Source: a virus. Taken from it: a DNA stretch of 64,000 bases. The position numbers and the translations under genes were made by a program. The stretch lies in the IMG/VR virus record IMGVR_UViG_3300008448_008693, positions 1-64,000 of that record, one strand, 5' to 3'. Position 1 is the first letter of the stretch; the number at the start of each line of letters is the position of its first letter. The notes under the pieces are model-generated. The model worked only from the letters and a program-made list of their open reading frames with translations, made no database searches and was not told the DNA's origin. Below, one piece after another: positions 35,258 to 63,701 of this stretch.

Positions 35258-35261
35258 ATGT

Positions 35262-35528: not shown

Positions 35529-35530
35529 AG

Positions 35531-36861: not shown

Positions 36862-36899
36862 ATTATTTTAATTAAATTTTATAACTAAATAATACTCCA

Positions 36900-39995: not shown

Positions 39996-40003
39996 AAGTT
40001 TTA

Positions 40004-40612: not shown

Positions 40613-40614
40613 TT

Positions 40615-41250: not shown

Positions 41251-41308
41251 ATTCCATTTTTTTATTATTTAAATTATTGTTAGGGTAATATTATTATTAA
41301 TTAATAAA

Positions 41309-43152: not shown

Positions 43153-43154
43153 TT

Positions 43155-45107: not shown

Positions 45108-45108
45108 T

Positions 45109-46617
45109 TTAATTCATATTTAAAAAACATTCTTTAATTTTGTCGAAATTATCTAACATAAACGGTAATAAATTGTTATGGTAATCTTGTTGTAATTTTT
45201 TTAAATTATCACTATCCTCGTTCCTTGTTTGACTTTCATAATGATATGCAACAATGTTTCCATCACAATAATTTGTCAACCCCAATGTCACACATTTTAA
45301 ATTTAACTCAACATCTTCTAAACAACTAATATAGTTTTCATTAAAATACCCACATTTTTCAAAAATGTCTTTCTTAATCATCAATAACCCACCTGTATTA
45401 CCCGTTTCCTTAGTTAGGGTTGTAGAATAATTATAATAATTTGTTAAATTTTTATGACTCAATCGGATATTACCACTTTTATCAACAAAAAGTATAATTC
45501 CATCATGCTGAATGGTTTTATTTTCAAAATGAAGTCTACCCCCAACAGTTCCGACCTTAGTTTTTTCTTTAAAAACTTTCAACATACCATAAATCGCATT
45601 GTTCAACAACTTAATGTCATTGTTACAGAATAGGATAAATTCATATTCATTTCCAATATGATGTTTTACTACTTCATTATTTATCTTAGCAAAATTATAA
45701 TAATCAAATTCTATTAATTTAACATTTGTATTTTCATACCTTATTTTAATTAATTCCTTTTCTTCAACTGACGAACCTGTATCGGCAATAAAAATATCAT
45801 ATAACAATGTATTACAGTGTTCGTGAAATGAATCAACACAATCAAATAATAAATTTAATTTACTTTTTGTTGGGATGATGACCGCAACTTTACCAACATT
45901 TTTAATTTGTTTTTCTTTAATTTCAGGAACATATATTGATTCAGGTTTTAAATCTAACGGTAAAATTGACCTGAATTTATTAATAAATTTTTCTTTGGTT
46001 TCATAAAATTCTTGATTCGGTTTCCCAACCGATTGGTGGGTTATTTCAAATGATGAGGTAACACCTATCTTAACACCATCAACATAATTAGGTAAACAAA
46101 AACTATGGTCATAAAAATGGAAACGTCCCATGGTCTCATCAAATTTATGTATTATCTTTGTTTTGTCAAATGCCATAAATAAACCATCAATACTTACGAC
46201 AGGAACTAAGAATGGTAATTTTGGTGAGTATTTACTTAAAAACTTTTTATGACCGTCAGGATGATGATAAACTTGACCAACCATAGTTTGTTTTAATCTT
46301 TCCCAATACACACCCGACTCAGGAAAATAACAACTACCAGCCTTACCAATTATACCGAATTCAGGGTTGTTAGAAAAATCCTCTAACAATTTTTTACCCC
46401 AATTTTTTTCAAGTTTAATATCGTTATGACAACATACAACAATATCATACTTGGCATCTTTTATTCCTTTATTGTAAAGTTCGGATAATGAGTATTCGTT
46501 ATGGTTTACGTAAGGTAAAACCTGTACCCATTGAAGTCCTGATGTTAACACAAGATGGTCATTAAACTTATCGTTGTATTCTTTATCTTTATGTGTTGAG
46601 TAAATTATTGTTATCAT
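45109..46617 (-). CDS. Two-domain glycosyltransferase (tandem GT2-like)
   Basis: A 502-aa protein with two GT-A domains. Domain 1 (about 1-230) begins ITIIYSTHKD and has CCHNDIKL (about 62-69) as metal-binding region. Domain 2 (about 245-490) begins VAVIIPTKS and has FCNNDIKLL (about 335-343), then HYESQTR near the end. Such two-domain enzymes often add alternating or sequential sugars. The N-terminal domain resembles the StrF-type GT2-like family. It overlaps the 56-aa gene upstream. Confidence 0.85.
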   Translation of the reverse strand: MITIIYSTHKDKEYNDKFNDHLVLTSGLQWVQVLPYVNHNEYSLSELYNKGIKDAKYDIVVCCHNDIKLEKNWGKKLLEDFSNNPEFGIIGKAGSCYFPESGVYWERLKQTMVGQVYHHPDGHKKFLSKYSPKLPFLVPVVSIDGLFMAFDKTKIIHKFDETMGRFHFYDHSFCLPNYVDGVKIGVTSSFEITHQSVGKPNQEFYETKEKFINKFRSILPLDLKPESIYVPEIKEKQIKNVGKVAVIIPTKSKLNLLFDCVDSFHEHCNTLLYDIFIADTGSSVEEKELIKIRYENTNVKLIEFDYYNFAKINNEVVKHHIGNEYEFILFCNNDIKLLNNAIYGMLKVFKEKTKVGTVGGRLHFENKTIQHDGIILFVDKSGNIRLSHKNLTNYYNYSTTLTKETGNTGGLLMIKKDIFEKCGYFNENYISCLEDVELNLKCVTLGLTNYCDGNIVAYHYESQTRNEDSDNLKKLQQDYHNNLLPFMLDNFDKIKECFLNMN

Positions 46618-46759
46618 CTTCGTTTTCTTCTAATAATTTCTTTAACTTATCTAATTTTTCTGTCATATACCCATTCCACCACCCATCATTCATATTTGAC
46701 ATGGCAATTTCAGACTTCACCTTTTCAATCTCACACTCTATTTCTTTTTTACTTTTCAT
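46589..46759 (-). CDS. Small coiled-coil protein, 56 aa
   Basis: An ORF of 57 codons too short for most gene finders. It starts with ATGA overlap to the dUTPase stop and ends 29 bases inside the next gene, which is typical of translational coupling. The sequence MKSKKEIECEIEKVK and the LDKLKKLLEENED segment give a Lys/Glu-rich coiled coil around a central NMNDGWWNGYM patch. It may be a small regulator or adaptor. The function is unknown. Confidence 0.65.
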   Translation of the reverse strand: MKSKKEIECEIEKVKSEIAMSNMNDGWWNGYMTEKLDKLKKLLEENEDDNNNLLNT

Positions 46760-47361
46760 ATCCCTGTACTTCCAAATCCGTTATCACCTCTTTCTTTTTC
46801 GTTTATTTTTTCTTTTTCAACCAAATTAACCCACTTTCCATTAACAACAGGGCAAAGAACTGCTTGAGCAACCTTCATACCTTTAGTTATCGTTACAGGG
46901 TGATTATTTGTGTTAAATACAATTACTTGAACTTCACCTGTATATCCATTGTCAACAGTTCCTGGTGAGTTAAGAACCATTAGTCCTTGTTTAATCGCTA
47001 AGCCGCTTTTAGACCTAACTTGAATTTCGTACCCATCTTTAATATCAAATGAAAGACCTGTCGGAACTAAAACTCTACCAAAAGAAGGTATTTCTATTTC
47101 CTCAGTTGAATATAAATCAAATCCAGAATCACTTGAATAATTATAGAACGGGTCAATTGCATTTTCATTTAACTTAGTATACCCTAAATCAAGTGTTGGT
47201 TCATATTCATTAAATGCCTTTTCAATTTCACTAAAATCAACACCAAATTCGTCCATTATTGAGTCAAAATCTCCAACGTCATCATCTTTAGTTAATTTCA
47301 TAATCTCATCAATTTCTTTCATTTTTTCGTTGTAGAAATTGTAATTTTCAGGATTTGTCAT
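46756..47361 (-). CDS. dut: dUTPase (trimeric family)
   Basis: A 201-aa dUTP pyrophosphatase that hydrolyses dUTP to dUMP and so limits uracil in DNA and supplies dTMP synthesis. All five motifs are present: SGFDLYS (79-85), RSKSGLA (about 117-123), GTVDNGYTGEV (about 134-144), KGMKVAQAVL (about 159-168) and RGDNGFGSTG (near the end). An acidic N-terminal extension of about 65 residues, absent in typical 150-aa dUTPases, precedes the core. The exonuclease gene overlaps by 4 bases. Confidence 0.95.
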   Translation of the reverse strand: MTNPENYNFYNEKMKEIDEIMKLTKDDDVGDFDSIMDEFGVDFSEIEKAFNEYEPTLDLGYTKLNENAIDPFYNYSSDSGFDLYSTEEIEIPSFGRVLVPTGLSFDIKDGYEIQVRSKSGLAIKQGLMVLNSPGTVDNGYTGEVQVIVFNTNNHPVTITKGMKVAQAVLCPVVNGKWVNLVEKEKINEKERGDNGFGSTGI

Positions 47362-48059
47362 TTTAGTTCTTTTAATTTTTTTATAGCTTCTATTAATACC
47401 TCCACATCCTTCTCACAATATTCGGCAATTTCTTTTATCATATTCTTATTCCAATAAGAATCGTGGACATTTGCCCCAGACACCTCACCACCTTTTGGTG
47501 ATTCAATCCCCAAACAAGAGCAAAGTAAATCAAGGGACCCAATTGCGGTATAAGCCCCGTATTGCCATATTTCTTTAGTGTCAATCGCTTTAACTTCCCA
47601 TGGCTTTGTATCATATGATGGAAGAATCTTGGATGGCATAATCCCATTAATAATCATACGCTTAGCCAACATAGGAATATCAAAATTCTTTAAATTGTGA
47701 CCACATAGATAAAAATCAAGTTTATGACATCTATCTAAAAGATTTCTAACTTGGATTAAAAGTTCCTTTTCATCTTCACCTGAAAATGTTTGTTTTTTAA
47801 CATCACCATTATCCATAACAAATGCCATTGACACACAAACAATTTTTGCAAATTCGGGGACCAATGCCCCCCGTTTTATAAAAACATCATCAGGAACAAG
47901 TCCTACGTCTTCTGGAAATCTTTTTTGAAACCAATCAAAGTACTTACTGAATTGGTCCGCAAGTTCGGGACTAAATTTTTGACAAGATTCGTAATCAGGA
48001 CAACCCCCAACAGTCTCAATGTCTAAGAATAAAATTTTAGTAATTGGAATATTAATCAT
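47358..48059 (-). CDS. DEDDy 3'-5' exonuclease (PolB-like exo domain)
   Basis: A 233-aa free-standing 3'-5' exonuclease. ExoI LFLDIET (about 10-16, Asp13 and Glu15), ExoII GHNLKNFDIPML (about 119-130) and ExoIII YCEKDVEVL (about 216-224) give the DEDDy set. It resembles the predicted PolB-related 3'-5' exonucleases. It might proofread, process ends, or degrade host DNA. No polymerase domain is attached. Confidence 0.92.
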   Translation of the reverse strand: MINIPITKILFLDIETVGGCPDYESCQKFSPELADQFSKYFDWFQKRFPEDVGLVPDDVFIKRGALVPEFAKIVCVSMAFVMDNGDVKKQTFSGEDEKELLIQVRNLLDRCHKLDFYLCGHNLKNFDIPMLAKRMIINGIMPSKILPSYDTKPWEVKAIDTKEIWQYGAYTAIGSLDLLCSCLGIESPKGGEVSGANVHDSYWNKNMIKEIAEYCEKDVEVLIEAIKKLKELK

Positions 48060-48062
48060 ATC

Positions 48063-49280
48063 TTATTTTATAATTGATTCGTAAAATTCTTTTCGCAAAA
48101 TGGTTACATTTTGTAAATTGTATTTGTCTTTAACAGTTTCATACAATCTTTCACCCATATCGGTAATCATATTAGGGTTCTCAACAAGTTTTTTAATAAA
48201 CTTTGACCAATCACTATGATTTTTAGTTTCGTCAACTAACAAAGCATTACCATCAACAAAATTACCATTTTTAAGTGAATGTTTCAAGTCAATTGTATAA
48301 GGACCAACGTTAGATGCGATTAACGCTTTTTTGTAAAACCCCGCCTCAATAACTTTAAGTTGAGATTTAACCCTGTTAAAAATATGGTTTTTAATTGGTG
48401 CTAAAGAAATATCAAATTTAGAGTAATTCATAGCGTAAGATGTTACAGGTTTTGTCCAAACTCTTTGGTATGGTAATATAATATCACTTTTGTATTCATC
48501 TTCTTTAAATTCAAATAAGTAATCTTTGTATTTACCGTCAATAATTTTATAGTTATTTGTAAAAATCTCTTCATACTTAACCCAAACGGTTTCGCTAGGT
48601 TTAATTGGTCTTTGTTTTTGTTCACCTGTCTGTTGATTAACTTCAGTTACGGTCCCACGAATATCAAATCCACATAACACATATTGGATTTTATCATTAA
48701 TACTTGAGTTTTTTTGAACAAATCCATCCAATAATTTTAAATCATGTAAATGAGATGACCCCCCTAACCAACCAACTCTAATTCTTTCAGATTCTAATGT
48801 TGGTTGTTTGAACTGAGGTTCATCTGGATTTATTGCATTTGGAAAAACAACCACATTTTTATTGTATTTTCTAATTTCATCGGCAAAAATTTCTGTAGTT
48901 GTTGTTACATAATCCGCTAATTTTAGATTAGCAACAATTTTTTCATGTATTTTGTTTTGAACAATTAATGAGTGGATTGGGTGTTCTTTTGTTGGTAACC
49001 AATAATCATCTAAATCAACAATAACTTTAATTCCTTGGGATTTTAAGTAGTTAATCAACTGTTGAGTCCCCTCATAAGATGAACCAACATTTCTATGGAT
49101 ATGAACAATTTGATATTTTTTCCAATAATTAGGGTCATTTACTTTAGGTTCAAAATCAATATCCACATAAAAATCATTAGGATACATATTTTGTAACATT
49201 ACATGGGGGTCAACTGAGCGAAACTTTCCGACACCAGTTTTATCGCTTGGTAAGACTAACACATTAATTTTTTCTTTCAT
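48063..49280 (-). CDS. Glycosyltransferase, GT4-like
   Basis: A 405-aa GT-B protein. The N-terminal domain has VLVLPSDKTGVGKFR (about 6-20) and VIVDLDDYWLP (about 87-97). The C-terminal domain begins RIRVGWLGGSSHLHDL (about 168-183), and an E-A-G-F-Y-K segment near residue 315 is the expected donor site. It ends the sugar-related run on this strand. Confidence 0.85.
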   Translation of the reverse strand: MKEKINVLVLPSDKTGVGKFRSVDPHVMLQNMYPNDFYVDIDFEPKVNDPNYWKKYQIVHIHRNVGSSYEGTQQLINYLKSQGIKVIVDLDDYWLPTKEHPIHSLIVQNKIHEKIVANLKLADYVTTTTEIFADEIRKYNKNVVVFPNAINPDEPQFKQPTLESERIRVGWLGGSSHLHDLKLLDGFVQKNSSINDKIQYVLCGFDIRGTVTEVNQQTGEQKQRPIKPSETVWVKYEEIFTNNYKIIDGKYKDYLFEFKEDEYKSDIILPYQRVWTKPVTSYAMNYSKFDISLAPIKNHIFNRVKSQLKVIEAGFYKKALIASNVGPYTIDLKHSLKNGNFVDGNALLVDETKNHSDWSKFIKKLVENPNMITDMGERLYETVKDKYNLQNVTILRKEFYESIIK

Positions 49281-52140: not shown

Positions 52141-54981
52141 ATGGCGGGTCAAAATATAAATCAATATGTTTATCCAAATTGGGGCGTAAAACTCGTTAAT
52201 GAGTCATATGATATGTCGTTAACGTCTGACGAACAAGGGTACAATCAAGAGGTTGTTTTCTCACCATATTTGATTGCTCAAACATATGGTAATAAATTAC
52301 CCGTTTATTTTGATATTGATAATCCTCTAACATCTCAAGGTTTAAACTTAACATATAAAAATTATAATCTTAATAATATATTTGTTTCTCAAAACTATTA
52401 TGAAACTAATGATTTAGATTTAAATTGTTTTACAGGTCATTCTTCTTGTGATATTGGTTTAACAGGTATTGATAATGGTTTAGTATCTGAAATGACGGGA
52501 CAAACCATAAATTTTACTAATGGGTTAATTAATGACTCATTAAAGTTTACACGACTTAATTTTGATAGGAGACTTAAACTATTTCAAACCACAGGATACA
52601 CTAGTTCACCTAACATTAGATTTTCAGGTTTTGATAAAACTATATTATATGAAGTTGTAAGTAAAAACGACCCTTTTGTCGGTAAATACCACGAACTATA
52701 TGGAGGGTTTTATCAAGGGTTCTATAAATTATTTGGGTATGATTATGATATTTTACCTGAAAGAATGAATAAAGGTTGGTCAGTTGAGATGATTCTAAAA
52801 CCTAGATTAATTGATGAATATTTTCCTGGCCCCAATGAAACAACTTTAAACGAAATTTACCCTAATAATAAAAATACATTCTTTTATTTTGGGACTAGAG
52901 CGGAAAATAAATTTTATCATCACGCTGATGGTACCCCAAATTGTTTTACAGGGTACACAAGAGTAACAACACCTTTAACGGGATTAACTACCTGTGCTTG
53001 CTGTAATAAAACAATAACGGATAGTCGTTGTATATATGTTTACCCTCCTAGGTCGGTAAATAATATTCACGACCCACACGTTAATTATGGTTGTAATTTA
53101 TGTAATGGTAACCGAGAGAAAAAAATAACTTGTGGATGTGACTGTAAAGATTATACTTGTGAAACGTGTGGATGGGAATGTTTTGAACATAAGTGTGACA
53201 CTATAATAACACCTACCCCAACTCCATCGCCCACACCTACACCCACACCTGACAATTGTGTTATAATACCAACTTGCACACCAACATGTACTAAATGTGA
53301 TACTTGCGATGATTGTAAATGCTCAACAACAGGATTTACATCAGTTGAGAATACTTGCGAGGTGGACCCATTGTTTGATTCATTATCCAACGCAATATCG
53401 TTCAGATTATGCGGTGACCCTAAAAACCCTCAAATAGGGGTTAGAATGTTATCAATTACAGGTGATTGTCAAACAACGGGCTCTTGTGAAAACACTGGTG
53501 TTACATTCACGACAGGGTATACGATAGTTGATTATTGTACCCCACCTATATACCCAAGATGTGAACAAGAAAATCCTGCTTGGTTAGAGGAAGAACATTG
53601 GTTCCAAGTTAATATTGTGTGGGAAAGATACAATTGGTTAGATGAATGTGATTTATTATTTAGAGGTGGTTTAGATACAATAACTGAAAAACTTTATTTA
53701 GAATCATTGGCTAATAACACGGTTTCTTTGGTTAATGTACCTTATACTAAAGTTGACGGAAAAACTGCTGAACAAATTGAAATTGTTAAGTTAAATGATA
53801 GATGGATAAGTGAAAAAAATTACCGAGAAGGTAGGTTAAAAATATATATTAATGGTAAAATATTTTATACAATTGAGAATTTTGAGGAATTAATTCCCAG
53901 AGCTTTAGATACTGATAAAGAAAAACAAGTTGGGGTTCCATTTAACATCTCGTGGGGTGGGGGTACTCAAGGATTACGAGAAAACTTAACATTTTCATCA
54001 ACAACGTTACCATTTGGGCCTTATATACAAGACCCTGAATGTTTTCCAATTAACGATTTAACAGGAACAACATTTAATGGTCTAAAAACTAATATATTAA
54101 TAGAGCAAAATTTTGCTGGAACATTTGAAGGTGCTATATCTCAATTTAGAATGTACACGTCTCCGTTATCCGCCCCTGAAATTAAACACAACTTCAAAAT
54201 TCTAAATCAGAAATTTGAAATGTTTAATCCTGATTGCCCTGATTGCTCAACAAAGGTATGTGAAATTAATGATTTTACTTACGTTATTACTGATACAAAT
54301 GATATACTTGAAGAATCAATTGAAATACCTCATCCATTAGGAAGAGTATATATTCCTGACGAAAGAGACAAAAATTATTTAATTGAGGATAAGTTAAAAC
54401 TTAAAAACACAATATTAACAACTAAGTATTGGGACGCCGATGAATGGTGGGGCAATCAAGAAAACACCCCTCAATGTGTTGGATATGCTTGGGCTCATTG
54501 GATTGAGGACGGACCAGTTAAACATGAGGGTATATCCCCAATCATCAATCCAACCTTAATTTATAAAGAAGCTCAAAAATTAGATGAGTGGGTTGGTGAA
54601 AATTATAATGGTACATCAGTTAGAGGTGGCGCTAAGTACTTGAAAAATACAAATAAGATTTCGTCATATTTATGGACTTATAATATTAACGTATTAATAG
54701 ATACTGTTTTAACTAAAGGCCCTGTAGTTGTGGGAACTAATTGGTATAGGTCAATGTTTTTCCCTGATAAGAATGGTTTAATGAGGGTCACTGGTAAATT
54801 AACTGGCGGACATGCTTATGTAATTAATGGGGTGGATAAAAATAAAAAATTATTTAGAATTAAAAATAGTTGGGGGAAAAATTGGGGAAAATCAGGTCAC
54901 GCATTCATATCATTTAGTGATATGGAAAAGTTAATTAAACAAAATGGTGAAGTTTGTTTAGCGATAGAGAATAAATTTTAA
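52141..54981 (+). CDS. Surface protein with C-terminal papain-like protease
   Basis: A 946-aa multi-domain protein. The N-terminal and central parts look like virion surface material: a beta-rich region (about 1-270), a Cys-rich segment (about 280-400) with many CxxC pairs and a Pro-Thr linker, and a LamG/ConA-like part ending near 690. Residues about 740-946 form a family C1 (papain) peptidase: Gln773 for the oxyanion hole, Cys779 (PQCVGYAW) as nucleophile, His891 in GGHAYVINGV and Asn909 in IKNSWGKNWG. The spacing from Gln773 to Cys779 equals that of papain Gln19 to Cys25. The enzyme could digest host surface proteins or process phage tail proteins. Confidence 0.9.
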   Translation: MAGQNINQYVYPNWGVKLVNESYDMSLTSDEQGYNQEVVFSPYLIAQTYGNKLPVYFDIDNPLTSQGLNLTYKNYNLNNIFVSQNYYETNDLDLNCFTGHSSCDIGLTGIDNGLVSEMTGQTINFTNGLINDSLKFTRLNFDRRLKLFQTTGYTSSPNIRFSGFDKTILYEVVSKNDPFVGKYHELYGGFYQGFYKLFGYDYDILPERMNKGWSVEMILKPRLIDEYFPGPNETTLNEIYPNNKNTFFYFGTRAENKFYHHADGTPNCFTGYTRVTTPLTGLTTCACCNKTITDSRCIYVYPPRSVNNIHDPHVNYGCNLCNGNREKKITCGCDCKDYTCETCGWECFEHKCDTIITPTPTPSPTPTPTPDNCVIIPTCTPTCTKCDTCDDCKCSTTGFTSVENTCEVDPLFDSLSNAISFRLCGDPKNPQIGVRMLSITGDCQTTGSCENTGVTFTTGYTIVDYCTPPIYPRCEQENPAWLEEEHWFQVNIVWERYNWLDECDLLFRGGLDTITEKLYLESLANNTVSLVNVPYTKVDGKTAEQIEIVKLNDRWISEKNYREGRLKIYINGKIFYTIENFEELIPRALDTDKEKQVGVPFNISWGGGTQGLRENLTFSSTTLPFGPYIQDPECFPINDLTGTTFNGLKTNILIEQNFAGTFEGAISQFRMYTSPLSAPEIKHNFKILNQKFEMFNPDCPDCSTKVCEINDFTYVITDTNDILEESIEIPHPLGRVYIPDERDKNYLIEDKLKLKNTILTTKYWDADEWWGNQENTPQCVGYAWAHWIEDGPVKHEGISPIINPTLIYKEAQKLDEWVGENYNGTSVRGGAKYLKNTNKISSYLWTYNINVLIDTVLTKGPVVVGTNWYRSMFFPDKNGLMRVTGKLTGGHAYVINGVDKNKKLFRIKNSWGKNWGKSGHAFISFSDMEKLIKQNGEVCLAIENKF

Positions 54982-54996
54982 TTTTAAAAATGGATA

Positions 54997-56775
54997 ATGT
55001 CATTAAAAATAACTATAAGTAGTATAAATTATGATGGTGAATTAGCAACCATATTATTTAAACCTGATAATGATATAGTTACAATTAATTTAGGTGAGGT
55101 AACATTACCCTTTGATTTTGAACCTTCTTTGTTAATTCCCCCAAGAGAGGTGTACGGTACATATACCATCTTAGTTGAAGATGCGGATTGTCCTAATATA
55201 TTGAATGTGTATAGACCAACACCTACCGTTACTCCTACACCCACAAATACTAAAACTCCTACACCTACAAATACTAAAACCCAAACATCAACACCTACAT
55301 TTAATCCTTGTTTAGTAACTAAAACCCCGACAGTAACACCAACAAATACTAAAACCCCAACACCGACTAAAACCCCAACTAAAACAATTGACCCATGTTT
55401 ATTAACTAAAACCCCAACACCTAGTATTACATCAACTAAAACCCCAACACCTAGTATTACATCAACTAAAACCCCAACACCGACTAAAACCCCAGCTAAT
55501 ACCTCAACCCCGACTAATACTCAAACTCAAACTAATACCAATACTCAAACCCCAACTAATACACCTACTAATACACCAACCAACACAGAAACCCCAACTG
55601 AAACTCCGACTAATACGCCAACTAATACTCAAACGCCAACCAACACAGAAACCCCAACTCAAACACCAACTCAAACACCAACGAATACAACAACACCAAC
55701 AATAACATCAACTCCAACACAAACTTCAGCACCTGAGTGCGACATTCTTTTAACTATAATACCAATAACACCGACACCTACTGTCACACAAACCCCAACT
55801 AAAACACCATCACCCCAATGTGATTTTACTTTACAGATTAACTTTCCAGTAGAAACACCAACACCGACAGTTACTAACACACCAACAAACACTCCAACAA
55901 CTCCGTCACCATTTTTATTAGATAATTACCCTAATTCAGTTGCGGCTTTTTCGGCTAGAAAATTATCATCAACATATTCAGGTCCTTGCATGAGAGTGAG
56001 AAGAAATTTTGATAATACCGAATTAGACATTGGTTTTACCACAATAAATGGTAAAGTGGTTTTAGATTCACCAGCATTAATGGATTTTGTAACAGGTCCT
56101 TATGGTTCTTGGTCTTTTACAGGTGGTTTATATCAAGGAGTTAATGGTACTGGTTATGTTGTTGTTTGGTATGACCAATCAGGTAATGACAACCATGCTT
56201 ATCAATATACCCCAAATCAACAACAAGGTGTTGTTATAAATGGGACTAGAACGGCACTATTAGATAAAGATGGTAATTATCAAATAACCCCTTACTTACA
56301 CTCTTTTTTTGAATCAATGGCAAAAGCCCCATTAAGTTTAACAACAAATATACAAATAACCGCAGCATTTACTTTAGGTCAAGTATTTTCTCAAAATAAT
56401 ATTAACTACATATTCTTCGGGTCTAGCGGGTCAATCGGTGGAGCTTGGTATAACGGTTCTTTCGTTGATGCTCAAGGACTTGGATTCTTTGACGGAGTAT
56501 TGGCATTTAGTTTAACGGGCGAAGATTTATTATCTCACTTAGGTTATTTTGACTTCTCAACGGGTAGAATGTTAATTTCTAAAGATGGTGCACCTTCACA
56601 AGATTTGGGGGCGTCGTTGACACCAATTAATCTTACTCATATCGCGGGTAGAACTGGGTCAAGTGCATTATATTTTAGAGGTGGGGTTAATGAATTTGTG
56701 TTCTATAATACAGACCAATCGGTAAATAAAGTAGGTATTGAGACCAACATAAACAATTTTTATAACACATATTAA
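54997..56775 (+). CDS. Fibre with Thr/Pro stalk and arabinofuranosidase-like tip
   Basis: A 592-aa three-part protein. An N-terminal anchor domain of about 65 residues (SLKITISSINYDGEL onwards) is shared with the next fibre genes. A Thr/Pro-rich stalk follows (about 72-300, TPTxTPT type), and a C-terminal domain (about 305-592) resembles the ArabFuran-catal (ABF-B) fold: SVAAFSARKLSSTYSGPC, VVVWYDQSGNDNHAYQY and a final GGVNEFVFYN. In characterised relatives this fold cleaves arabinose side chains or binds glycans, so it may act on or bind host polysaccharide. Whether it is catalytic is unknown. Confidence 0.85.
   Translation: MSLKITISSINYDGELATILFKPDNDIVTINLGEVTLPFDFEPSLLIPPREVYGTYTILVEDADCPNILNVYRPTPTVTPTPTNTKTPTPTNTKTQTSTPTFNPCLVTKTPTVTPTNTKTPTPTKTPTKTIDPCLLTKTPTPSITSTKTPTPSITSTKTPTPTKTPANTSTPTNTQTQTNTNTQTPTNTPTNTPTNTETPTETPTNTPTNTQTPTNTETPTQTPTQTPTNTTTPTITSTPTQTSAPECDILLTIIPITPTPTVTQTPTKTPSPQCDFTLQINFPVETPTPTVTNTPTNTPTTPSPFLLDNYPNSVAAFSARKLSSTYSGPCMRVRRNFDNTELDIGFTTINGKVVLDSPALMDFVTGPYGSWSFTGGLYQGVNGTGYVVVWYDQSGNDNHAYQYTPNQQQGVVINGTRTALLDKDGNYQITPYLHSFFESMAKAPLSLTTNIQITAAFTLGQVFSQNNINYIFFGSSGSIGGAWYNGSFVDAQGLGFFDGVLAFSLTGEDLLSHLGYFDFSTGRMLISKDGAPSQDLGASLTPINLTHIAGRTGSSALYFRGGVNEFVFYNTDQSVNKVGIETNINNFYNTY
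55216..55724 (+). repeat. Thr/Pro stalk repeat, gene 54997
   Basis: Irregular TPTxT units (ACTAAAACCCCAACA-type) form the stalk, with short breaks. The codons for the same residues vary. Confidence 0.9.
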
Positions 56776-56776
56776 T

Positions 56777-57004
56777 ATGATAGTATTAGGTTATAAATAT
56801 ACAACTGAAAATGAGGCTAAAGAAGCCACTAAATTATGTGACCAATTTTATGGATACCCTAAAGAAGGTTGTTTATCTAAAAGTTGGTGTGAATACGAGT
56901 ATTATGAGACGGATGATTTTTATTACATAGTTTATGGTGATACATTAAAAAATGTATTAGGTGAACCTTCAGAATTAAATATTAAAATAACTAACCCTTT
57001 ATAA
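56777..57004 (+). CDS. Small acidic protein, 75 aa
   Basis: A compact acidic protein with Tyr-rich C-terminal half (YYETDDFYYIVYG) and two Cys. It sits between two fibre genes and overlaps the next start by one base (TAATG), so it is coupled. It might be a fibre chaperone or a small virion decoration. No family recognised. Confidence 0.65.
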   Translation: MIVLGYKYTTENEAKEATKLCDQFYGYPKEGCLSKSWCEYEYYETDDFYYIVYGDTLKNVLGEPSELNIKITNPL

Positions 57005-58824
57005 TGTCATTATCAATAACCATAGCAAGTATTAATTACAACGGACAAGTTGGGGATATCACTTTTTACCCACTTACTGGTGGTACGATAAACATCGGAC
57101 CACAAACAATACCGTATGTTTATTTCACAGATTACCCATATGGGGTGTATGATATTTATGTTTCATCATATGATATAACTTGTTCAGTTTCAATAGCACC
57201 TCCAACACCAACCCCAACTAATACACCAACTGAAACTCCTACAAATACTCCTACAGAAACTCCTACAAATACTCCTACAGAAACACCAACCAACACACCT
57301 ACTGAAACTCCAACTCCTACTTCTACCCCAACAAATACTCAAACACCAACTAACTCTATAGTATCATCAGGATTGATAATGAATTGGGATATTCAAAACA
57401 CAAGTTCTTATAGTGGTAGTGGGTCAATAATAACTGACTTACAAGGTAATATAAATGGGACAATGACAGGTGTTATTTCATACACAAACGATTCTCCGAA
57501 ATATCTAACTATTGATGGTGGAGTATCTGAGTATATATACACATCAAATATTAACCCATACTTATCACCTGTAAATACAGGAACGGCTCAATCTACTTTC
57601 CTTTGGATTTACCCAACATCTAATGGTATAATTTATTCTGAACAAGGCTCTCTTTCACCTGACTTTGGTTGGTTCGATGTTCAAATTCAAAGGGATTCTA
57701 GTGATAGATTTTTATTCGGAGTTTGGCCATACACTATCAATGGTCCTGCACCAATAACATCATCCATTACTCACTCTCTGAATAATTGGTATTATGTTGG
57801 TTGGACATATAATGGGACCACACTTACTGCGTATGTAAACGGAACAATGGTTGGAATATCAACCTATTCGAGAGACACACCATACAATTTAGGGCCTAGT
57901 TTACCGATGTATTTCAATTTCGGATACCCATCCACTACGGATTTGACAACAACAACTTCCGCTTGTTCTTATAGATTAGGTGCGGTTCAAATTTACAACA
58001 TTGGTTTATCGGGGGCTCAAGTGTTACAAAACTATAATTATGATAGTGCTAAATATATATTACCCACACCAACACCAACAGTTACCCCAACTAACACACC
58101 AACTACAACAAAAACCTCAACACCATCGGCAACACCTAGTATCGTAACATCAAACTTACAACTACAATTATCACCAAGTAGTTATATTGGCTCAGGAACT
58201 GTTTGGGATACAACTGTTGGGACTACAGATGCGATTTTATCGGGTAGTCCAACTTATAATATATTAAGTGGGTTTACATTTAATGGAACTACTCAATATG
58301 GTAGAATACCAAGTGTTGATGGTGTAACGAACTTTACAAATACCAGTGAGTATACTGTTGAAATTTGGTTTAACCCATCGTCGGGTCAAGCAAATACTGC
58401 TGAAGCCGAAATATTAGAGAAATGGAATCAGACTAATCAATTGAGGTATCCATATGTTTTTAGATACGCCGAAAATACTGGTACGGTAACCGCGGCAGTT
58501 TATGATGGTACTACTTTTAGAAATATAAACTTAACAGGATTCCCAACAAATACGTGGGCACAAGTCGTGGGGGTTTTCAACTTCACAACAGATGTCTTCA
58601 CACTTTATAGAAATGGTGTATCGGGAGGCACCGCCAGTTTAGTGGGTATAGGACAAGTAAGTAATACAAGTTCGGTTGGTATTTCGTGTAGACTTAAAAC
58701 CGATGGGACAGGTGAGATATTTTTCAAGGGAACAGTTTCAATAGTGAGAATATATAACACTGCTTTATCGTCCTCTCAAGTGTTACAAAACTTTAATGTA
58801 GATAAAACAAAATACGGTTTATAA
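57004..58824 (+). CDS. Fibre with Thr/Pro stalk and two LamG-like tips
   Basis: A 606-aa protein. Anchor domain (1-65) with the pattern [18 protein letters not shown] and a [13 protein letters not shown] segment, Thr/Pro stalk (about 66-118), first LamG/ConA-like domain (about 123-350), second stalk (about 355-378) and second LamG-like domain (about 382-606) ending [17 protein letters not shown]. The two LamG domains have different surface loops, which suggests two binding specificities. LamG domains in phage fibres usually bind carbohydrates; enzymatic activity is not expected. Confidence 0.85.
57200..57353 (+). repeat. Thr/Pro stalk repeat, gene 57004
   Basis: A short array of PTNTPTET-like units (24-bp period), similar to the long array at 59026-60066. 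Confidence 0.9.
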
Positions 58825-58828
58825 TAAT

Positions 58829-60160
58829 ATGTCATTTTCAATAATCATATCAAGTGTTAATTACAACGGACAGGTTGGGGATATTACTTTTTATCCTTTA
58901 ACTGGTGGGACTATAAATATAGGTCTTCAAACTATACCGTATACTTATTTTACTGACTATCCATATGGAACATATGATATCTATTTTTCTTTTTACAATA
59001 AAACTTGTTCGTCAACAATAATTCCACCAACACCCACACCTACCAATACTCCTACTGAAACCCCTACCAATACTCCTACTGAAACCCCAACTAATACTCC
59101 AACAGAAACTCCGACTAATACTCCTACCAATACACCAACTGAAACACCAACTAATACGCCCACCGAAACACCTACTAGTACACCTACTGAAACTCCGACT
59201 AGCACACCAACTGAAACGCCAACTAACACTCCTACTAACACCCCTACAGAAACGCCGACCAATACCCCTACAGAAACTCCAACCAATACTCCTACAGAAA
59301 CTCTAACACCCACTCCTACTGAAACACCAACTGAAACGCCAACTGAAACGCCAACTAATACTCCTACCGAAACCCCTACCAATACACCAACTAATACACC
59401 AACTGAAACGCCAACTAATACTCCTACTGAAACACCAACTGAAACGCCAACTGAAACGCCAACTAATACTCCTACCGAAACCCCTACCAATACTCCAACT
59501 AATACACCAACTGAAACGCCAACTAATACTCCTACCGAAACCCCTACCAATACTCCTACTGAAACACCAACTAATACCCCTACCAATACACCGACAGAAA
59601 CCCCTACTAATACACCTACTGAAACTCCTACTAGTACACCAACAGAAACTCCGACAAACACGCCAACCCCGACTGAAACACCAACTAATACTCCTACTAA
59701 CACTCCTACCGAAACCCCTACTAATACACCTAGCTCGTCAATAACACCTACACCAACTGAAACACCAACTGAAACCCCAACTAATACTCCTACCGAAACC
59801 CCTACTAATACACCTAGCTCGTCAATAACACCTACACCAACTGAAACACCAACTAATACTCCTACTAACACTCCTACCGAAACCCCTACTAATACACCTA
59901 GCTCGTCAATAACACCTACACCAACTGAAACACCAACTAATACTCCTACACCAACACCAACAGAAACACCTACTAATACACCTAGCTCGTCAATAACACC
60001 AACCCCGACTGAAACACCTACTAATACACCAACACCTAGTGTTACCCCAACAATGACAGTAACTCCAACACAAGTCGCTAGCTTATTATTATTACAAGAT
60101 GGTAGTCCTATAACACTACAAGACGGTTCGGGAGGAATTAAATTACAGTTTAGTTTATAA
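58829..60160 (+). CDS. Mucin-like fibre: anchor, long Thr/Pro stalk, short tip
   Basis: A 443-aa protein. The anchor (1-64) is close to that of gene 57004 (same [17 protein letters not shown] and TDYPYG stretches). The next 350 residues are almost pure PTNTPTET repeats (8-residue period), the last part with an SSSITPTPT-containing higher-order unit. The C terminus is short ([17 protein letters not shown]), a phage motif of the LLLxDGS type. It has hundreds of Thr and Pro and almost no charge except Glu, so it is likely an extended O-glycosylation substrate. No tip domain is present, so it may act as a stalk coat or spacer. Confidence 0.85.
59026..60066 (+). repeat. Long PTNTPTET-type repeat array
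   Basis: A roughly 1-kb array with a 24-bp (8-residue) period, encoding Pro-Thr-Asn-Thr-Pro-Thr-Glu-Thr and close variants. Third codon positions vary among A, C, G and T, so the DNA repeats are diverged while the peptide is kept. Confidence 0.93.
59728..60050 (+). repeat. 84-bp higher-order repeat with SSSITPTPT
   Basis: The TAGCTCGTCAATAACACC core occurs at 59731, 59815, 59899 and 59983, exactly 84 bases (28 residues) apart. Near identity of the copies shows that this part expanded recently. Confidence 0.9.
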
Positions 60161-60189
60161 TAGTCTATACCATAAAATTATGACTACTA

Positions 60190-60202
60190 TATTTATCTAA
60201 TA
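60190..60202 (+). promoter_or_regulatory. TATTTAT-type promoter candidate
   Basis: TATTTATCTAATA ends 5 bases before the start codon at 60208 and resembles the box before gene 219 (TATTTATCTAATA). Confidence 0.5.
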
Positions 60203-60207
60203 GGACT

Positions 60208-61635
60208 ATGCAAATTATTGAAATCACAAGTGTTACAGGAACTTCACCTTATGATATTATTATATGTGATATAACATATACGTATTGTTATACTGCAGAC
60301 ACTGGAGTAGTTTCAATCCCCCCAACATTGTATGTTAATTTACCAATAGAATTGTATGGTTCCCAAAGTGTAATTGTGAAAATAGTTGATTCGTTAGGAT
60401 GTGAAGAAATCCAATTTGTGGAATGTCCGCCGACACCAACTCCAACCCCAACACTGACTATAACACCAACAATAACACCAACAAATGCTAATTGTGTTTG
60501 TTTAACGTTTACAAACCCAACCTTGAGTACATTAGGGTTTAGTTATACTAATTGTGATAATGGAGTGGTTAGTTTTACAATTAACCCTTTAACTATCATA
60601 TATGTATGTGGTTCAAACCCTGTTTATGACTCAGGAGTTGAGGTAACTATTGGGTCTTATTGTGTTGGGAACGTATGTCCACAACCAACACCAACACCGA
60701 CCGCAACTCAAACACCAACACCGACTATACCAGGTATAATCGGTTCATTTGTTAGCTGTTGCGACTCAAATATAGAATTTAAAGTTAGTAATATACCATA
60801 TTATCATTATCCATTATCGGGAGTTTATTATATTGTTAGTTCAGGGTTTCAAGGATGCGCAACATATATACCAACAACGACATCAACAAATATATACGTA
60901 TGTTCATTAATAGGTTCCCAACCCGATTGTTATTTTTGTGATATATCTCACCCTGATGTTTTATGTCCTACATCTACACCAACACCTACTAACACCCCAA
61001 CTGTAACGTCAACACCAACACCTACACCAACTAATAGTGTTATTTTTGTTAAAAGAGTCGCATTAGATTGTTGTACTATGGAGGGTAAAGTCATCAGCGT
61101 ACCTTCATATTTAACGTCAGGTGATATTGTAAAAGCAACTAATGGTAATTGTTATACTTTATTAGTAACAACACCAGCAAGTGCTAATATAATTTGGGAT
61201 GGAACAAGCTACGGTGATTGTGAATCTTGTATTACTTGCCCAACACCAACACCAACACCAACCGAGACGCCAACTAATACCCCAACACCTACTAATACGC
61301 CGACTAACACTGTTACATCAACACCATTATTAGTGGTTTGTTTCCAGTATACTTACTCAACATTTTTAGGTGATTCTGACACAATTTATCAAACAGGATA
61401 CTATAACTCTAAACCTTACTACACTTTAACTTATGGTTTTGTTTGGTTTGATATTGGCACATCTTTATGGATTTGGTCAACTTTATTAGGTGGTGGTATT
61501 ACTTTAGATACATTAAATAATGGGGGATTATTCTACCCGTATTGTTGTTCATTCTCCCCGTCATATCCTAATTGGGATAACATTAATTCACCTTCTGATT
61601 TTATGTCAGTTTCAAGTGTAGGGGGATGTGCTTAA
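60208..61635 (+). CDS. Cys-rich modular surface protein with PT linkers
   Basis: A 475-aa protein made of several small Cys-containing modules separated by short PTPTPT linkers (near residues 75, 160, 255 and 350). The N-terminal module (EITSVTGTSPYDI onwards) is a possible fourth, diverged anchor domain. Modules are about 60-90 residues, each with two to six Cys (for example DSNIEFKVS after SCC, and FCDISHPD). They may be disulphide-bonded small domains for binding. It is the last protein of the fibre block and is followed by a gap with a promoter-like motif. Confidence 0.8.
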   Translation: MQIIEITSVTGTSPYDIIICDITYTYCYTADTGVVSIPPTLYVNLPIELYGSQSVIVKIVDSLGCEEIQFVECPPTPTPTPTLTITPTITPTNANCVCLTFTNPTLSTLGFSYTNCDNGVVSFTINPLTIIYVCGSNPVYDSGVEVTIGSYCVGNVCPQPTPTPTATQTPTPTIPGIIGSFVSCCDSNIEFKVSNIPYYHYPLSGVYYIVSSGFQGCATYIPTTTSTNIYVCSLIGSQPDCYFCDISHPDVLCPTSTPTPTNTPTVTSTPTPTPTNSVIFVKRVALDCCTMEGKVISVPSYLTSGDIVKATNGNCYTLLVTTPASANIIWDGTSYGDCESCITCPTPTPTPTETPTNTPTPTNTPTNTVTSTPLLVVCFQYTYSTFLGDSDTIYQTGYYNSKPYYTLTYGFVWFDIGTSLWIWSTLLGGGITLDTLNNGGLFYPYCCSFSPSYPNWDNINSPSDFMSVSSVGGCA

Positions 61636-61648
61636 ATAAGTGAAATTA

Positions 61649-61655
61649 TATTTAT
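61649..61655 (+). promoter_or_regulatory. TATTTAT-type promoter candidate for the glycosyltransferase genes
   Basis: TATTTAT followed by T-rich sequence, 41 bases before the start codon at 61697. A weaker example than most. Confidence 0.3.
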
Positions 61656-61696
61656 TTTTTAATTTGTAAGGTTATTTTTTTCATAAAAAGTTAACT

Positions 61697-62944
61697 ATGA
61701 AAATATTTGTTCAGATTGCCTCATATAGAGACCCCCAACTTATCCCTACAATTAAAAGTATGATTGAAAATGCTAAACGACCAAAAAACTTGGTTATTGG
61801 TATTTGTAGACAATATCACCCTGAAGATGGTTTTGATTCTTTGGAGGAATATTCAAAAGATAAACGATTTAGAGTTGTTGATGTTTTATATTCAGAATCT
61901 AAAGGTGTTTGTTGGGCGAGAAATCAAGTCCAACAATTATATGGTGGTGAAGAATACACTCTTCAGATAGATTCCCATATGAGATTTGAAAAGGATTGGG
62001 ACGACACTCTAATTAAGATGGTTAAACAACTTCAAAAGAAAGGGTTCGAAAAACCTTTACTAACGGGATATGTTTCATCATTTAATCCTGAGAATGACCC
62101 CGCGGAAAGAATAAGAGAACCTTGGCGAATGGTGTTTGATAGATTTATACCTGAAGGTGCGGTATTTTTCTTACCTGAGACAATACCTGGCTGGGATAAA
62201 TTAAAGGAACCAATCCCTGCAAGATTTTATTCCGCTCATTTTGCGTTTACATTAGGTAAGTTTAGTGAAGAGGTACAACACGACCCTGAGTTTTATTTTC
62301 ACGGAGAAGAGATTTCAATAGCGGCAAGAGCATATACTCACGGATATGATTTGTTTCACCCTCATAAAGTAGTTATTTGGCACGAGTATACAAGAAAAGG
62401 TCGTGTAAAACAATGGGATGATGATAAAGATTGGGGTACTAAAAATAATGTGTCTCACGCAAAAAACAGACAATTATTTGCTATGGATGGTGAAGAGGTA
62501 ACCATTGATTTCGGAAACTATGGTTTTGGAACCGAAAGAACTTTAAGAGATTATGAAATATATTCAGGACTTTTGTTTTCAAGAAGAGCAGTGCAACAAT
62601 ATACTTTAGATAAACAATATCCACCTAACCCACACATTTATGAAACTGAAGAAGAGTGGTTGAGTAGTTTTGCAACAATATTCAAACATTGTATTGATAT
62701 TGGTTATGATAGTGTACCTGAAGATGATTATGATTTTTGGGTGGTTGCCTTCCACGATGAAAATGATGAAACTATCTATAGACAAGATGCCGACCCAGGA
62801 GAAATCCAAAGAATGAAAAATGACCCTGATGGTTATTGTAAAGTGTGGAGGCAGTTTCAAACAACACATAAACCATCTTATTGGGTTGTTTGGCCGTATT
62901 CCAAGTCTAAAGGATGGTGTGACCGATTAACAGGAAATTTATAA
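61697..62944 (+). CDS. GT60-like GlcNAc/protein O-glycosyltransferase
   Basis: A 415-aa GT-A enzyme that resembles the PF11397 glycosyltransferase (GlcNAc) family (CAZy GT60), whose Dictyostelium and trypanosome members add GlcNAc to Thr, Ser or hydroxyproline. It has IASYRDPQLIPT (7-18), a CWARN box, a LQIDSHMRF metal-binding strand (about 92-100), FAFTLGKF, a FHGEEISIAARAYTHGYD segment (about 196-213) and a HEYTRKGR tail motif. Directly downstream of the Thr/Pro stalk genes, it is a strong candidate for glycosylating them. Residues after 310 form an extra domain not assigned. Confidence 0.88.
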   Translation: MKIFVQIASYRDPQLIPTIKSMIENAKRPKNLVIGICRQYHPEDGFDSLEEYSKDKRFRVVDVLYSESKGVCWARNQVQQLYGGEEYTLQIDSHMRFEKDWDDTLIKMVKQLQKKGFEKPLLTGYVSSFNPENDPAERIREPWRMVFDRFIPEGAVFFLPETIPGWDKLKEPIPARFYSAHFAFTLGKFSEEVQHDPEFYFHGEEISIAARAYTHGYDLFHPHKVVIWHEYTRKGRVKQWDDDKDWGTKNNVSHAKNRQLFAMDGEEVTIDFGNYGFGTERTLRDYEIYSGLLFSRRAVQQYTLDKQYPPNPHIYETEEEWLSSFATIFKHCIDIGYDSVPEDDYDFWVVAFHDENDETIYRQDADPGEIQRMKNDPDGYCKVWRQFQTTHKPSYWVVWPYSKSKGWCDRLTGNL

Positions 62945-62948
62945 TTTA

Positions 62949-63701
62949 ATGGAAGATATTAACTATTCAGTTTGTATAACTACCTTCTCAAGAAGGTATT
63001 CGTATGTGGAAAAATTAGTGACCCAAGTTAGGGAATTAACTAACTGCGATATATTAATTGCGGTCAATGGTGATTATAAACAAGATTTTAACAATGATTA
63101 CCGAAAACAAATTTTAGAATTATGTTTAAAATTTGATAACGTGTTCCCAATATTTTTTCCAGAACAAAGAGGTTTATCTAAGTTGTGGAATACTTTGGTG
63201 GTTCACAGTAAACAAGATTGGTGTTTAGTATTAAACGATGATGTTGAATTAGACAACGATGAGGTATTTAAACTTACAATACCTGGTTTAGGGGACAAAC
63301 CTGATTTACGAAGAATTAACGGTTCTTTCTCGCATTTTTTAATACATAAAGATTGTTTAGATGAAATAGGTTATTTTGATGAGAGGTTATTGGGTTTTGG
63401 TGAAGAAGATGGTGATATTTTTTATAGATATATTGAGACGTATAATCAATGGATACAAGAAGCTTGGGTTCACGGATTTAATAATTTGGTGATAGATATT
63501 AGAGATGAAAATATAAAACCTGGGGTAGGAAAATACTCTCAATTTAACCGACATTTTTGTTTTGTTGATGACCCTTGTAAATATGTTCCAGTATCTGAAG
63601 GTATTACAGGACTATTTGGTCAACATATGAAAAAAAATATTGAGGATTTAAAACAATATCCGTATGAAAAATTCTTTAAAGAAAATAAAGATAAACTTTA
63701 A
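62949..63701 (+). CDS. GT2-like glycosyltransferase
   Basis: A 250-aa GT-A enzyme: YSVCITTFSRR (about 6-16), a second strand CDILIAVNGDYKQ, WCLVLNDDVELDNDE (about 91-105, containing the DDV metal site), and GYFDERLLGFGEEDGD (about 141-156), a typical GT2 acceptor-side motif. It follows the GT60-like gene after 4 bases and is probably co-expressed, for example to extend the first sugar. Confidence 0.88.
   Translation: MEDINYSVCITTFSRRYSYVEKLVTQVRELTNCDILIAVNGDYKQDFNNDYRKQILELCLKFDNVFPIFFPEQRGLSKLWNTLVVHSKQDWCLVLNDDVELDNDEVFKLTIPGLGDKPDLRRINGSFSHFLIHKDCLDEIGYFDERLLGFGEEDGDIFYRYIETYNQWIQEAWVHGFNNLVIDIRDENIKPGVGKYSQFNRHFCFVDDPCKYVPVSEGITGLFGQHMKKNIEDLKQYPYEKFFKENKDKL

Follow-up and report, generated by a model that had tools for sequence, protein, structure and literature searches.

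A candidate phage-encoded mucin-type O-glycosylation locus beside threonine/proline-rich stalk genes

The closest described counterparts of the locus reported here include the protist GT60 alpha-N-acetylglucosamine (GlcNAc) transferases (Skp1 Gnt1 and the Trypanosoma cruzi enzyme). The mucin starter of T. cruzi acts on the threonine/proline (Thr/Pro) peptide KPPTTTTTTTTKPP with Mn2+ (PMC3769586), while in the Skp1 pathway a GT60 enzyme, then a GT2 domain and then a fucosyltransferase domain act in turn (PMC6939170). For phages, at least two glycoproteins have been published for Xanthomonas phage XacN1 (PMC5852040), and mycobacteriophage virion proteins carry glycans that act as a shield (Freeman et al. 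2023, cited in PMC12619734). Here, we describe a set of genes at the end of a 64,000-base stretch of virus DNA (the window), which comprises bases 1–64,000 of the 68,514-base IMG/VR record IMGVR_UViG_3300008448_008693; a further 4.5 kb of the record lies downstream. Four genes encoding Thr/Pro-rich stalks are followed by a gene for a GT60-type glycosyltransferase (Pfam family PF11397) and by a cassette of other glycosyltransferase-like genes. The reading that we favour, with a probability of roughly 0.7, is that of a phage-encoded mucin-type protein O-glycosylation system, in which soluble enzymes would decorate the threonines of the stalks with a variable O-glycan, with a donor, an acceptor and a benefit that we infer.

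Phage glycoproteins (XacN1), mycobacteriophage virion glycosylation (cited in PMC12619734) and protist GT60 mucin starters are already known. Like the protist enzymes, the putative starter in the window matches PF11397 (E value 3e-72), and the GT2 and fucosyltransferase enzyme types of the Skp1 pathway also occur in the phage cassette. The phage locus differs from the protist systems in belonging to a bacterial virus, in having long PTxT stalks rather than a mucin or Skp1, in the lack of a PF13640 match in 15 records and in that transfer is here a prediction. In XacN1, the gene order is ORF334 (GT60, 48 % identity), ORF333 (carbamoyltransferase), ORF332 (HtrL-like, 29 %), ORF331 and ORF330 (HtrL-GT2, 42 %); ORFs 334, 332 and 330 are homologous to the window cassette, and this phage likewise has Thr/Pro proteins and reported glycoproteins (PMC5852040). 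Unlike in the window phage, the XacN1 cassette is away from the stalk genes and includes a carbamoyltransferase gene, with no GT10 or GT7C match in the open reading frames (ORFs) scanned. Mycobacteriophage glycans, again unlike the arrangement proposed here, sit on capsid and tail-tube C-termini (cited in PMC12619734).

Moraphages are large aquatic phages with predicted Bacteroidota hosts, whose core orthogroups comprise four putative glycosyltransferases (PMC12619734), and may include relatives of the window phage. The main texts of the XacN1 (PMC5852040) and moraphage (PMC12619734) papers make no mention of GT60, PF11397, mucin, proline, threonine or stalk. Among the papers listed by our searches of the open-licence literature, none described a phage system that joins a GT60 starter to linked stalks and an exchangeable cassette. 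An earlier note on this DNA knew of no described phage system that combines Thr/Pro stalks with such enzymes. To our knowledge, virion glycosylation is known for few phages, none with an acceptor rule, and we know of no mucin-like stalk or GT60 starter in the mycobacteriophage case.

Thr/Pro stalks and a GT60-type enzyme

Stretches were counted as Thr/Pro-rich where 40-residue windows contained at least 30 % T and at least 15 % P, or at least 50 % T. By this measure, 5 of the 69 predicted genes of the window are Thr/Pro-rich and form a single block (52141 to 61635), which is broken by a 75-amino-acid (aa) ORF at 56777 and ends 61 bases 5′ of the PF11397 gene. The block and the genes behind it are as follows, with positions beyond the window given as those of the record.

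52141–54981, + strand: papain-domain protein, 946 aa (PF00112, E value 1.1e-6; peptidase profile phrog_16701, 1.4e-56), first gene of the block
54997–56775, + strand: stalk protein 1, 592 aa, Thr/Pro-rich at residues 54–307 (254 residues, 98 Thr, 32 PTxT)
57004–58824, + strand: stalk protein 2, 606 aa, Thr/Pro-rich at residues 49–134 and 338–396 (145 residues, 40 Thr, 18 PTxT)
58829–60160, + strand: stalk protein 3, 443 aa, Thr/Pro-rich at residues 45–431 (387 residues, 169 Thr, 83 PTxT)
60208–61635, + strand: stalk protein 4, 475 aa, with three Thr/Pro stretches (165 residues, 46 Thr, 19 PTxT), adjoining the PF11397 gene
61697–62944, + strand: putative GT60-type polypeptide glycosyltransferase, 415 aa (PF11397), the constant 5′ end gene of the cassette
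62949–63701, + strand: GT2-like glycosyltransferase, 250 aa (PF00535, 4.6e-8), in the variable part of the cassette
63705 to record position 64643 (past the window end at 64000), + strand: GT10 fucosyltransferase-like protein, 312 aa (PF00852, 2.6e-14; 53.7 bits against a cut-off of 23.9)
record 64633–65526: HtrL-like gene following the GT10-like gene (weak match, E value 0.012)
record 65507–66229: GT7C-like gene following the HtrL-like gene
record about 66225–67907 (start inferred): tandem HtrL_YibB-GT2 gene, the constant 3′ end gene of the cassette
record 67948 to contig end: Thr-rich gene after the cassette, truncated where the contig stops

The PF11397 gene is thus followed by five more glycosyltransferase-like genes (GT2, GT10, HtrL-like, GT7C-like and tandem HtrL_YibB-GT2), of which the extra 4.5 kb of the record encodes three, together with another Thr-rich gene. 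A GT2-like gene and a third glycosyltransferase-like frame had been proposed at this position in the earlier note; the PF00535 match bears out the former, and the latter proved to be the GT10 fucosyltransferase-like gene. The same note counted three consecutive fibre genes with Thr/Pro stalks: the stalks are present (145–387 residues), and the genes number four once that at 60208 is included. The label 'fibre' is at best tentative: PHROG virion-structural profiles are matched by two stalk proteins (stalk protein 1 weakly, in its C-terminal domain, phrog_10356, 8.9e-7; stalk protein 2, phrog_8510, 2.6e-24) and one, stalk protein 2, has two Laminin_G_3 (lectin-like) stretches (PF13385, 5.6e-25).

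The stretches of the four main stalks (254, 145, 387 and 165 residues) contain 353 Thr in total and are long repeats of the mucin type, in which the x of PTxT is mostly N, E or P. Stalk protein 3 has tandem repeats of period 24 with a DNA-level likeness of merely 72 %, and within 58829–60160 matching residues use the same codon at a frequency of 0.41 at distance 4 (0.38 in a synonymous shuffle) and 0.51 at distance 28 (0.42). As this agreement is barely above that of the shuffle, recent DNA duplication does not account for the repeats, which are maintained mainly at the protein level; they are kept for their amino acids and are no DNA artefact. Neither the window stalks nor the cassette enzymes contain a membrane-like segment (highest 19-residue hydropathy 1.37), as expected if virion proteins are modified in the cytoplasm.

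PF11397, which we take to be CAZy family GT60, is the sole Pfam match of the 61697–62944 protein (244.5 bits against a cut-off of 21). Whereas the family given in the earlier note holds, its position as the next-but-one gene does not: the gene directly follows the fourth stalk gene. Among 21 aligned sequences (down to 29 % identity), D92 and H94 of a D92-S93-H94 motif are invariant and H229 is present in 20, with one gap; D92-x-H94 is presumably the metal site (DXD-equivalent). In GT27 enzymes, manganese is bound by a D-x-H pair and a later His. An AlphaFold2 (AF2) model built with 36 viral sequences (predicted local distance difference test (pLDDT) 86.6, predicted template modelling score (pTM) 0.82) has the GT-A catalytic fold of the GT27 polypeptide N-acetylgalactosamine (GalNAc) transferase (ppGalNAc-T) family. 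Foldseek analysis against the PDB returned polypeptide GalNAc-transferases as the top matches among those listed (best E value 1e-10), and in a second structure alignment they were the first 29 of the best 50 entries listed (Z 18.6–21.8), followed by B4GALNT1 (Z 16.3).

The predicted enzyme therefore resembles the GT27 starters of animal mucin O-glycans in having them as its closest solved fold (among the matches listed) and in the D-x-H pair with a later His. It is unlike them in the low identity (9–16 %, at a root-mean-square deviation of 3.3–4.1 over 260–283 residues), in an alignment that covers mostly residues 1–332 and in the lack of a PDB sequence match. Neither the protein nor its 36-row profile retrieved a relative in a PDB sequence search; sequence membership of GT27 was ruled out on this result and on PF11397 being the only Pfam match. 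No Pfam match to a ricin-type lectin domain was found at the C-terminus of the GT60 protein, the structure alignment mostly covering residues 1–332. We conclude that the product of 61697–62944 belongs to PF11397 and is predicted to fold like the enzymes that start protein O-glycosylation, a fold that leaves donor and acceptor unspecified.

Two other routes to modified stalks were considered and set aside. Hydroxyproline is an unlikely acceptor, since the P4H (prolyl 4-hydroxylase)-type oxygenase PF13640 was found in 0/15 records, a host enzyme or another oxygenase family being possible sources. The general O-glycosylation system of Bacteroidota recognizes the motif D-S/T-A/I/L/V/M/T; its use by a host of this phylum on the stalks is unlikely because the Thr/Pro stretches of stalk proteins 1 to 4 contain 0, 1, 0 and 0 copies of the motif, respectively.

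Stalk linkage and cassette exchange in related loci

A scan of IMG/VR yielded 339 stretches that encode GT60 relatives, of which the best 80 loci were used and reduced to 45 non-redundant ones (<97 % ungapped identity). The gene directly upstream of GT60 is Thr/Pro-rich in 32/45 loci, compared with 0/45 at position +1 and 0/45 at +2. A second Thr/Pro peak lies three to seven genes downstream (3/44, 4/42, 9/39, 9/34 and 3/29, respectively), 38/45 loci have a homologue of the window phage's Thr-rich post-cassette gene, and 43/45 have some Thr/Pro-rich gene within the locus piece. Among the best 80 loci, as many as 1,828 residues of a single frame lie in Thr/Pro stretches.

Both end enzymes (GT60 and a long HtrL-GT2 match) are present in 38/45 loci; the other seven (some of them cut contigs) were left out of the cassette statistics, and middle genes of <100 aa were not counted. 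Between the end enzymes of the 38 loci lie one to eight genes, 131 in total, which fall into 60 clusters (35 singletons) and 29 different sets. Among 89 locus pairs with GT60 enzymes at least 85 % identical (ungapped), 59 have no middle cluster in common. The Pfam matches of the 60 middle representatives (25 of the 40 families, among the matches listed) included many sugar enzymes and modifiers: FkbM methyltransferase (5), GT25 (4), GT2 (4) and GT10 (3), with one each for GT11, GT34, GT7C, a PLOD-type GT, carbamoyltransferase, DegT aminotransferase and GNAT. A model of the HtrL-GT2 enzyme (pLDDT 87.2, pTM 0.53) had Foldseek matches to LH3, chondroitin polymerase, LARGE1 and COLGALT1 (query TM 0.2–0.3, among the matches listed), which we read only as pointing to two GT-A domains and nothing further.

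Constant ends around a variable middle suggest a phage counterpart of the O-antigen locus. Bacterial O-antigen and capsule loci likewise have constant end genes around swapped sugar enzymes; the phage locus differs from them in that its product would be expected on a virion protein and in that its starter, judging from the fold, is probably polypeptide-directed.

Such a composition would also be expected if the enzymes remodelled host surface glycans (lipopolysaccharide (LPS) or capsule) against superinfection, as those of serotype-converting phages do: GT25 is by its Pfam name an LPS biosynthesis family, and GT2, GT10 and FkbM enzymes occur in LPS and capsule loci. However, the six cassette enzymes have no membrane segments, their Pfam matches do not include a lipid-linked starter, the predicted fold of the first enzyme is polypeptide-directed and the cassette follows genes with virion-structural matches, which makes a role at the host surface very unlikely.

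Under stalk glycosylation, the stalk proteins, whose PTxT repeats contain hundreds of Thr, would be made in the host cytoplasm, where the soluble GT60-type transferase would add the first sugar to stalk threonines from a host nucleotide sugar, most likely UDP-GlcNAc given the GT60 precedent. The variable enzymes (here GT2-, GT10-, HtrL- and GT7C-like) and the constant tandem HtrL_YibB-GT2 enzyme would then lengthen and cap the chain, probably with fucose in this phage, via its own Gmd/GDP-fucose synthase (GFS)-like pair. On assembly of the virion, the glycosylated proteins would become stiff, extended stalks with a coat of sugars. Since related phages exchange the middle enzymes and retain those at the ends, this coat would vary from phage to phage, as O-antigens do among bacterial strains. 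Direct support exists for the genes, predicted folds, linkage, cassette swapping and co-occurrence; we infer the acceptor, donor, step order, virion location and a benefit, be it adhesion, protection against proteases or evasion of agents that bind phages.

Co-occurrence in cultured phages and environmental records

Among 50,697 phage records, GT60 matches were confined to three jumbo phages, XacN1 and the Stenotrophomonas phages CM1 and RAS14 (46–49 %), and the same three alone matched the HtrL-GT2 enzyme (39–42 %). Their genomes contain 51 (XacN1), 22 (CM1) and 22 (RAS14) matches to TPTxTPT and none to the reversed pattern. For comparison, we chose 18 relatives that lack GT60 as judged by tblastn: 15 related by DNA polymerase (picked from the best 60 of 2,569 matches) and three by the window head protein (picked from the best 15 of 2,476; one uncultured). 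TPTxTPT was found in 0/18 of these records. Three named GT60-lacking relatives by head protein, Flavobacterium phage Immuto, RM378 and Mel-JY01, have no Thr/Pro pattern. GT60-like genes being as common in phages without stalks was the outcome that the earlier note had set against its own claim; instead, Thr/Pro proteins accompany 3/3 carriers and 0/18 of the chosen GT60-lacking relatives. In the three parts of the XacN1 genome examined (about 125 kb), 13 predicted frames have Thr/Pro stretches, several of them beside the tail sheath gene; the Thr/Pro ORFs of this phage include ORF369, 370, 372 and 384.

The XacN1 cassette lies near a DNA polymerase gene, and phage glycosyltransferases that act on DNA are well known (PMC5852040, PMC12619734), as would suit enzymes that modify phage DNA bases. 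We nevertheless consider this highly improbable: the fold is nearest to polypeptide GalNAc-transferases (base-modification genes were not searched for), and the cassette adjoins stalks and varies in its sugar-tailoring genes.

An unlikely but more substantial alternative is that the cassette glycosylates other virion proteins (head, sheath or tail tube), the stalks being unmodified spacers in the same variable region. This would fit the GT60 gene lying apart from the stalk genes in XacN1 and RAS14, the existence of Thr/Pro stalks without GT60 and the mycobacteriophage glycans on capsid and tail-tube C-termini (cited in PMC12619734). Against it are the stalk gene immediately linked in 32/45 loci, the missing Thr/Pro pattern in the GT60-lacking Immuto, RM378 and Mel-JY01, and the predicted fold, which is that of enzymes that usually act on Thr/Ser in Pro-rich stretches.

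We also examined environmental records selected by a Thr/Pro codon pattern. From 120 pattern loci, we took the 44 whose records reach 40 kb or more among the best 80 listed, and the controls were 50/120 loci (20 records of at least 40 kb among the best 80 listed plus 30 others; 27/50 are at least 40 kb) obtained with a pattern unrelated to Thr/Pro, of which an initial 16-base version gave only eight loci and a looser one was used. PF11397 was present in 17/44 long pattern records (at least 40 kb) versus 1/27 long controls (Fisher p 7e-4), and in 1/50 controls of all lengths; the lone positive control record itself has 18 TPTxTPT matches. The contrast was also seen at 40–100 kb (6/27 versus 0/24, p 0.02) and when the pattern was required to fall in a predicted frame (15/40 versus 1/27, p 1e-3); 2/17 positive and 2/27 negative pattern records lack a repeat-bearing predicted frame in the piece examined. 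Among the 27 PF11397-negative pattern records, the repeat lies in a predicted frame in 25, with a stretch of at least 40 residues in 23. Homologues of the cassette enzymes were found near 0/27 of the GT60-lacking stalks, 0/120 controls and 13/120 of all pattern loci.

Several results weigh against glycosylation of the stalks by the cassette. The fold alone fixes neither donor nor acceptor. Thirteen of the 45 loci have no Thr/Pro gene at −1 (two of them, L068 and L069, have none in the locus piece), and the upstream genes in 38/45 form one homology group, linked outside the repeats, so that the 32/45 are not 32 independent events. In 16 wider stretches taken from pattern and terminase records, the −1 gene is Thr/Pro-rich in three only (L307, L313 and L321); of the other 13, eight have such a gene at another position between −6 and +11, whereas five (L309, L315, L317, L318 and L320) have none in that range. 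A scan of bacterial genomes returned two GT60 homologues only, both without a Thr/Pro gene in the pieces examined. The GT60 gene of XacN1 and RAS14 does not adjoin Thr/Pro genes, and XacN1, CM1 and RAS14 are one clade, so that their 3/3 co-occurrence may be a single event. The text of PMC5852040 does not name which XacN1 proteins are glycoproteins, and electron microscopy of XacN1 showed no tail fibres (PMC5852040).

The environmental records add to these points. The contrast weakens at 100 kb and above (11/17 versus 1/3, p 0.54), and one of the 17 positives is almost identical to the window phage (verified frames give 14/39, p 2e-3, once it is left out). PF11397 is absent from the record examined in 27/44 long pattern records, and the 56 genes beside GT60-lacking stalks include, as glycosyltransferases, only GT2-type ones among the matches listed (25 of 44 families). 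A Thr/Pro stalk therefore need not have this cassette, and Thr/Pro stalks are commoner than the GT60 cassette.

These records also bear on the improbable case of no glycosylation link at all, in which Thr/Pro segments would be disordered linkers and cassette and stalks neighbours through a shared exchangeable region. The 27/44 records (25/27 with the repeat in a predicted frame), the near absence of glycosyltransferases beside such stalks (among the matches listed) and the single homology group of most upstream genes speak for it. Against it stand the co-occurrence that persists in XacN1-type phages even though cassette and stalk genes lie apart there, the fixed order (stalk at −1 in 32/45 loci, none at +1 and +2) and the Thr-rich-gene homologue behind the cassette in 38/45. 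Self-glycosylation of the stalks, as proposed in the earlier note, remains the best-supported reading (ppGalNAc-T fold, stalk linkage in 32/45, 3/3 versus 0/18 and XacN1 glycoproteins), while an exclusive link between stalks and GT60 does not hold (27/44 without PF11397). GlcNAc as the sugar, display on the virion surface and the protease protection or host mimicry suggested in that note are conjectural.

A broader proposition, on which we are evenly divided, is a complete phage mucin-type pathway in which a fixed eukaryote-like starter and a fixed tandem transferase enclose exchanged glycosyl-, methyl- and carbamoyltransferases, giving lineage-specific 'glycan serotypes' on the stalks. Such a pathway would be the viral equivalent of an O-antigen locus, carried by many environmental phages (339 matching stretches) and by cultured jumbo phages. 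PTxT stalks would provide a simple sequence sign, paired with a starter of predicted mucin-type fold and exchangeable tailoring enzymes. If true, many phage Thr/Pro proteins that lack annotation would be accounted for, as might be the core glycosyltransferases of large aquatic phages; phage surfaces would differ by glycan type, affecting adsorption, decay in water and clearance, and soluble enzymes would be gained for the production of mucin-like glycopeptides in bacteria. Cultured phages carry the system, and the claim is therefore testable now.

Side observations concern the stalks without PF11397 and the terminase relatives. Pattern loci in virus records without PF11397 (L087, L093, L110, L141 and others) encode Thr/Pro proteins of up to 2,355 aa, and a CBM5/12 module and an FGE-sulfatase domain are encoded among the genes that adjoin GT60-lacking Thr/Pro stalks. 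Among terminase relatives, many of them fragmentary, PF11397 was found in 3/24 and the Thr/Pro pattern in 14/24, those three included; the records are too fragmentary for this comparison to be informative.

Sugar-nucleotide genes, genomic setting and further loci

A second sugar cluster lies at window positions 33379–49280 on the − strand, with GT2-like genes, Gmd and a GDP-fucose-synthase-like enzyme. Its main features are as follows.

36900–37883, − strand: Gmd, GDP-mannose 4,6-dehydratase (PF16363, 3.3e-121)
37864–38778, − strand: GDP-fucose-synthase-like epimerase/reductase (PF01370, 1.1e-47), with specific GFS activity probable from sequence
43158–44096, − strand: second Gmd-like enzyme
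45112–46617, − strand: two-domain GT2

The cluster also contains one C-methyltransferase (PF08484) and two FkbM methyltransferases, and 4/10 frames scanned in it had no Pfam match. The presence of Gmd, a GDP-fucose synthase and methyltransferases in this genome, as put forward in the earlier note, is thus confirmed (PF16363, about 3e-121; a synthase-like epimerase; FkbM and C-methyltransferases). Gmd catalyses the first step towards GDP-fucose, and Gmd, the synthase-like enzyme and the GT10-like enzyme together form a plausible route to a fucosylated glycan. A Gmd match was found in 4/45 representative records of the related loci (three above the cut-off; many records are fragments), so Gmd was dropped as a general cassette partner and a phage-made GDP-sugar would be at most accessory. 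Two records with Gmd (L049 and L063) have DegT and HAD-nucleotidyltransferase genes in the cassette, suggestive of other deoxy-sugars.

The head genes of the window are T4-type-like (portal phrog_213 and major head protein phrog_138, plus a terminase, by PHROG profiles). Because the best matches listed for the head protein among phage records include Flavobacterium phages (40.7 %), a Bacteroidota host is plausible.

The 52141–54981 protein combines a 52-residue Thr/Pro stretch (residues 349–400) with a C-terminal papain-like (C1) domain. Papain-like C1 homologues occur as the free-standing ORF382 in XacN1 (39.8 %) and adjoining the cassette in loci L022 and L062. Is the papain-like protein a virion protease or a stalk-processing enzyme?

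Further loci differ in the arrangement of the stalk or end-enzyme genes. L006 (5660–8464) and L007 (5308–8464) have identical GT60 sequences and stalk frames of 350 and 351 aa versus 606 and 443 aa, suggesting repeat-length or frame variation, or an assembly error within the repeats. In L473 (1–3714), from a Saprospiraceae metagenome-assembled genome, an 810-aa frame that includes an HtrL-GT2 part (58 %) comes after a GT60 gene (71 %), and the neighbours resemble ordinary bacterial genes (one TatA-like, by eye); the end-enzyme pair may also occur in bacterial chromosomes, or L473 may be a mis-binned phage piece. Finally, a 138-kb virus record (G070:C1:6137-8300) has two PF11397 matches in tandem frames, and a 311-kb virus record (L319:6590-8989) has a GT60 domain inside a 799-aa frame.

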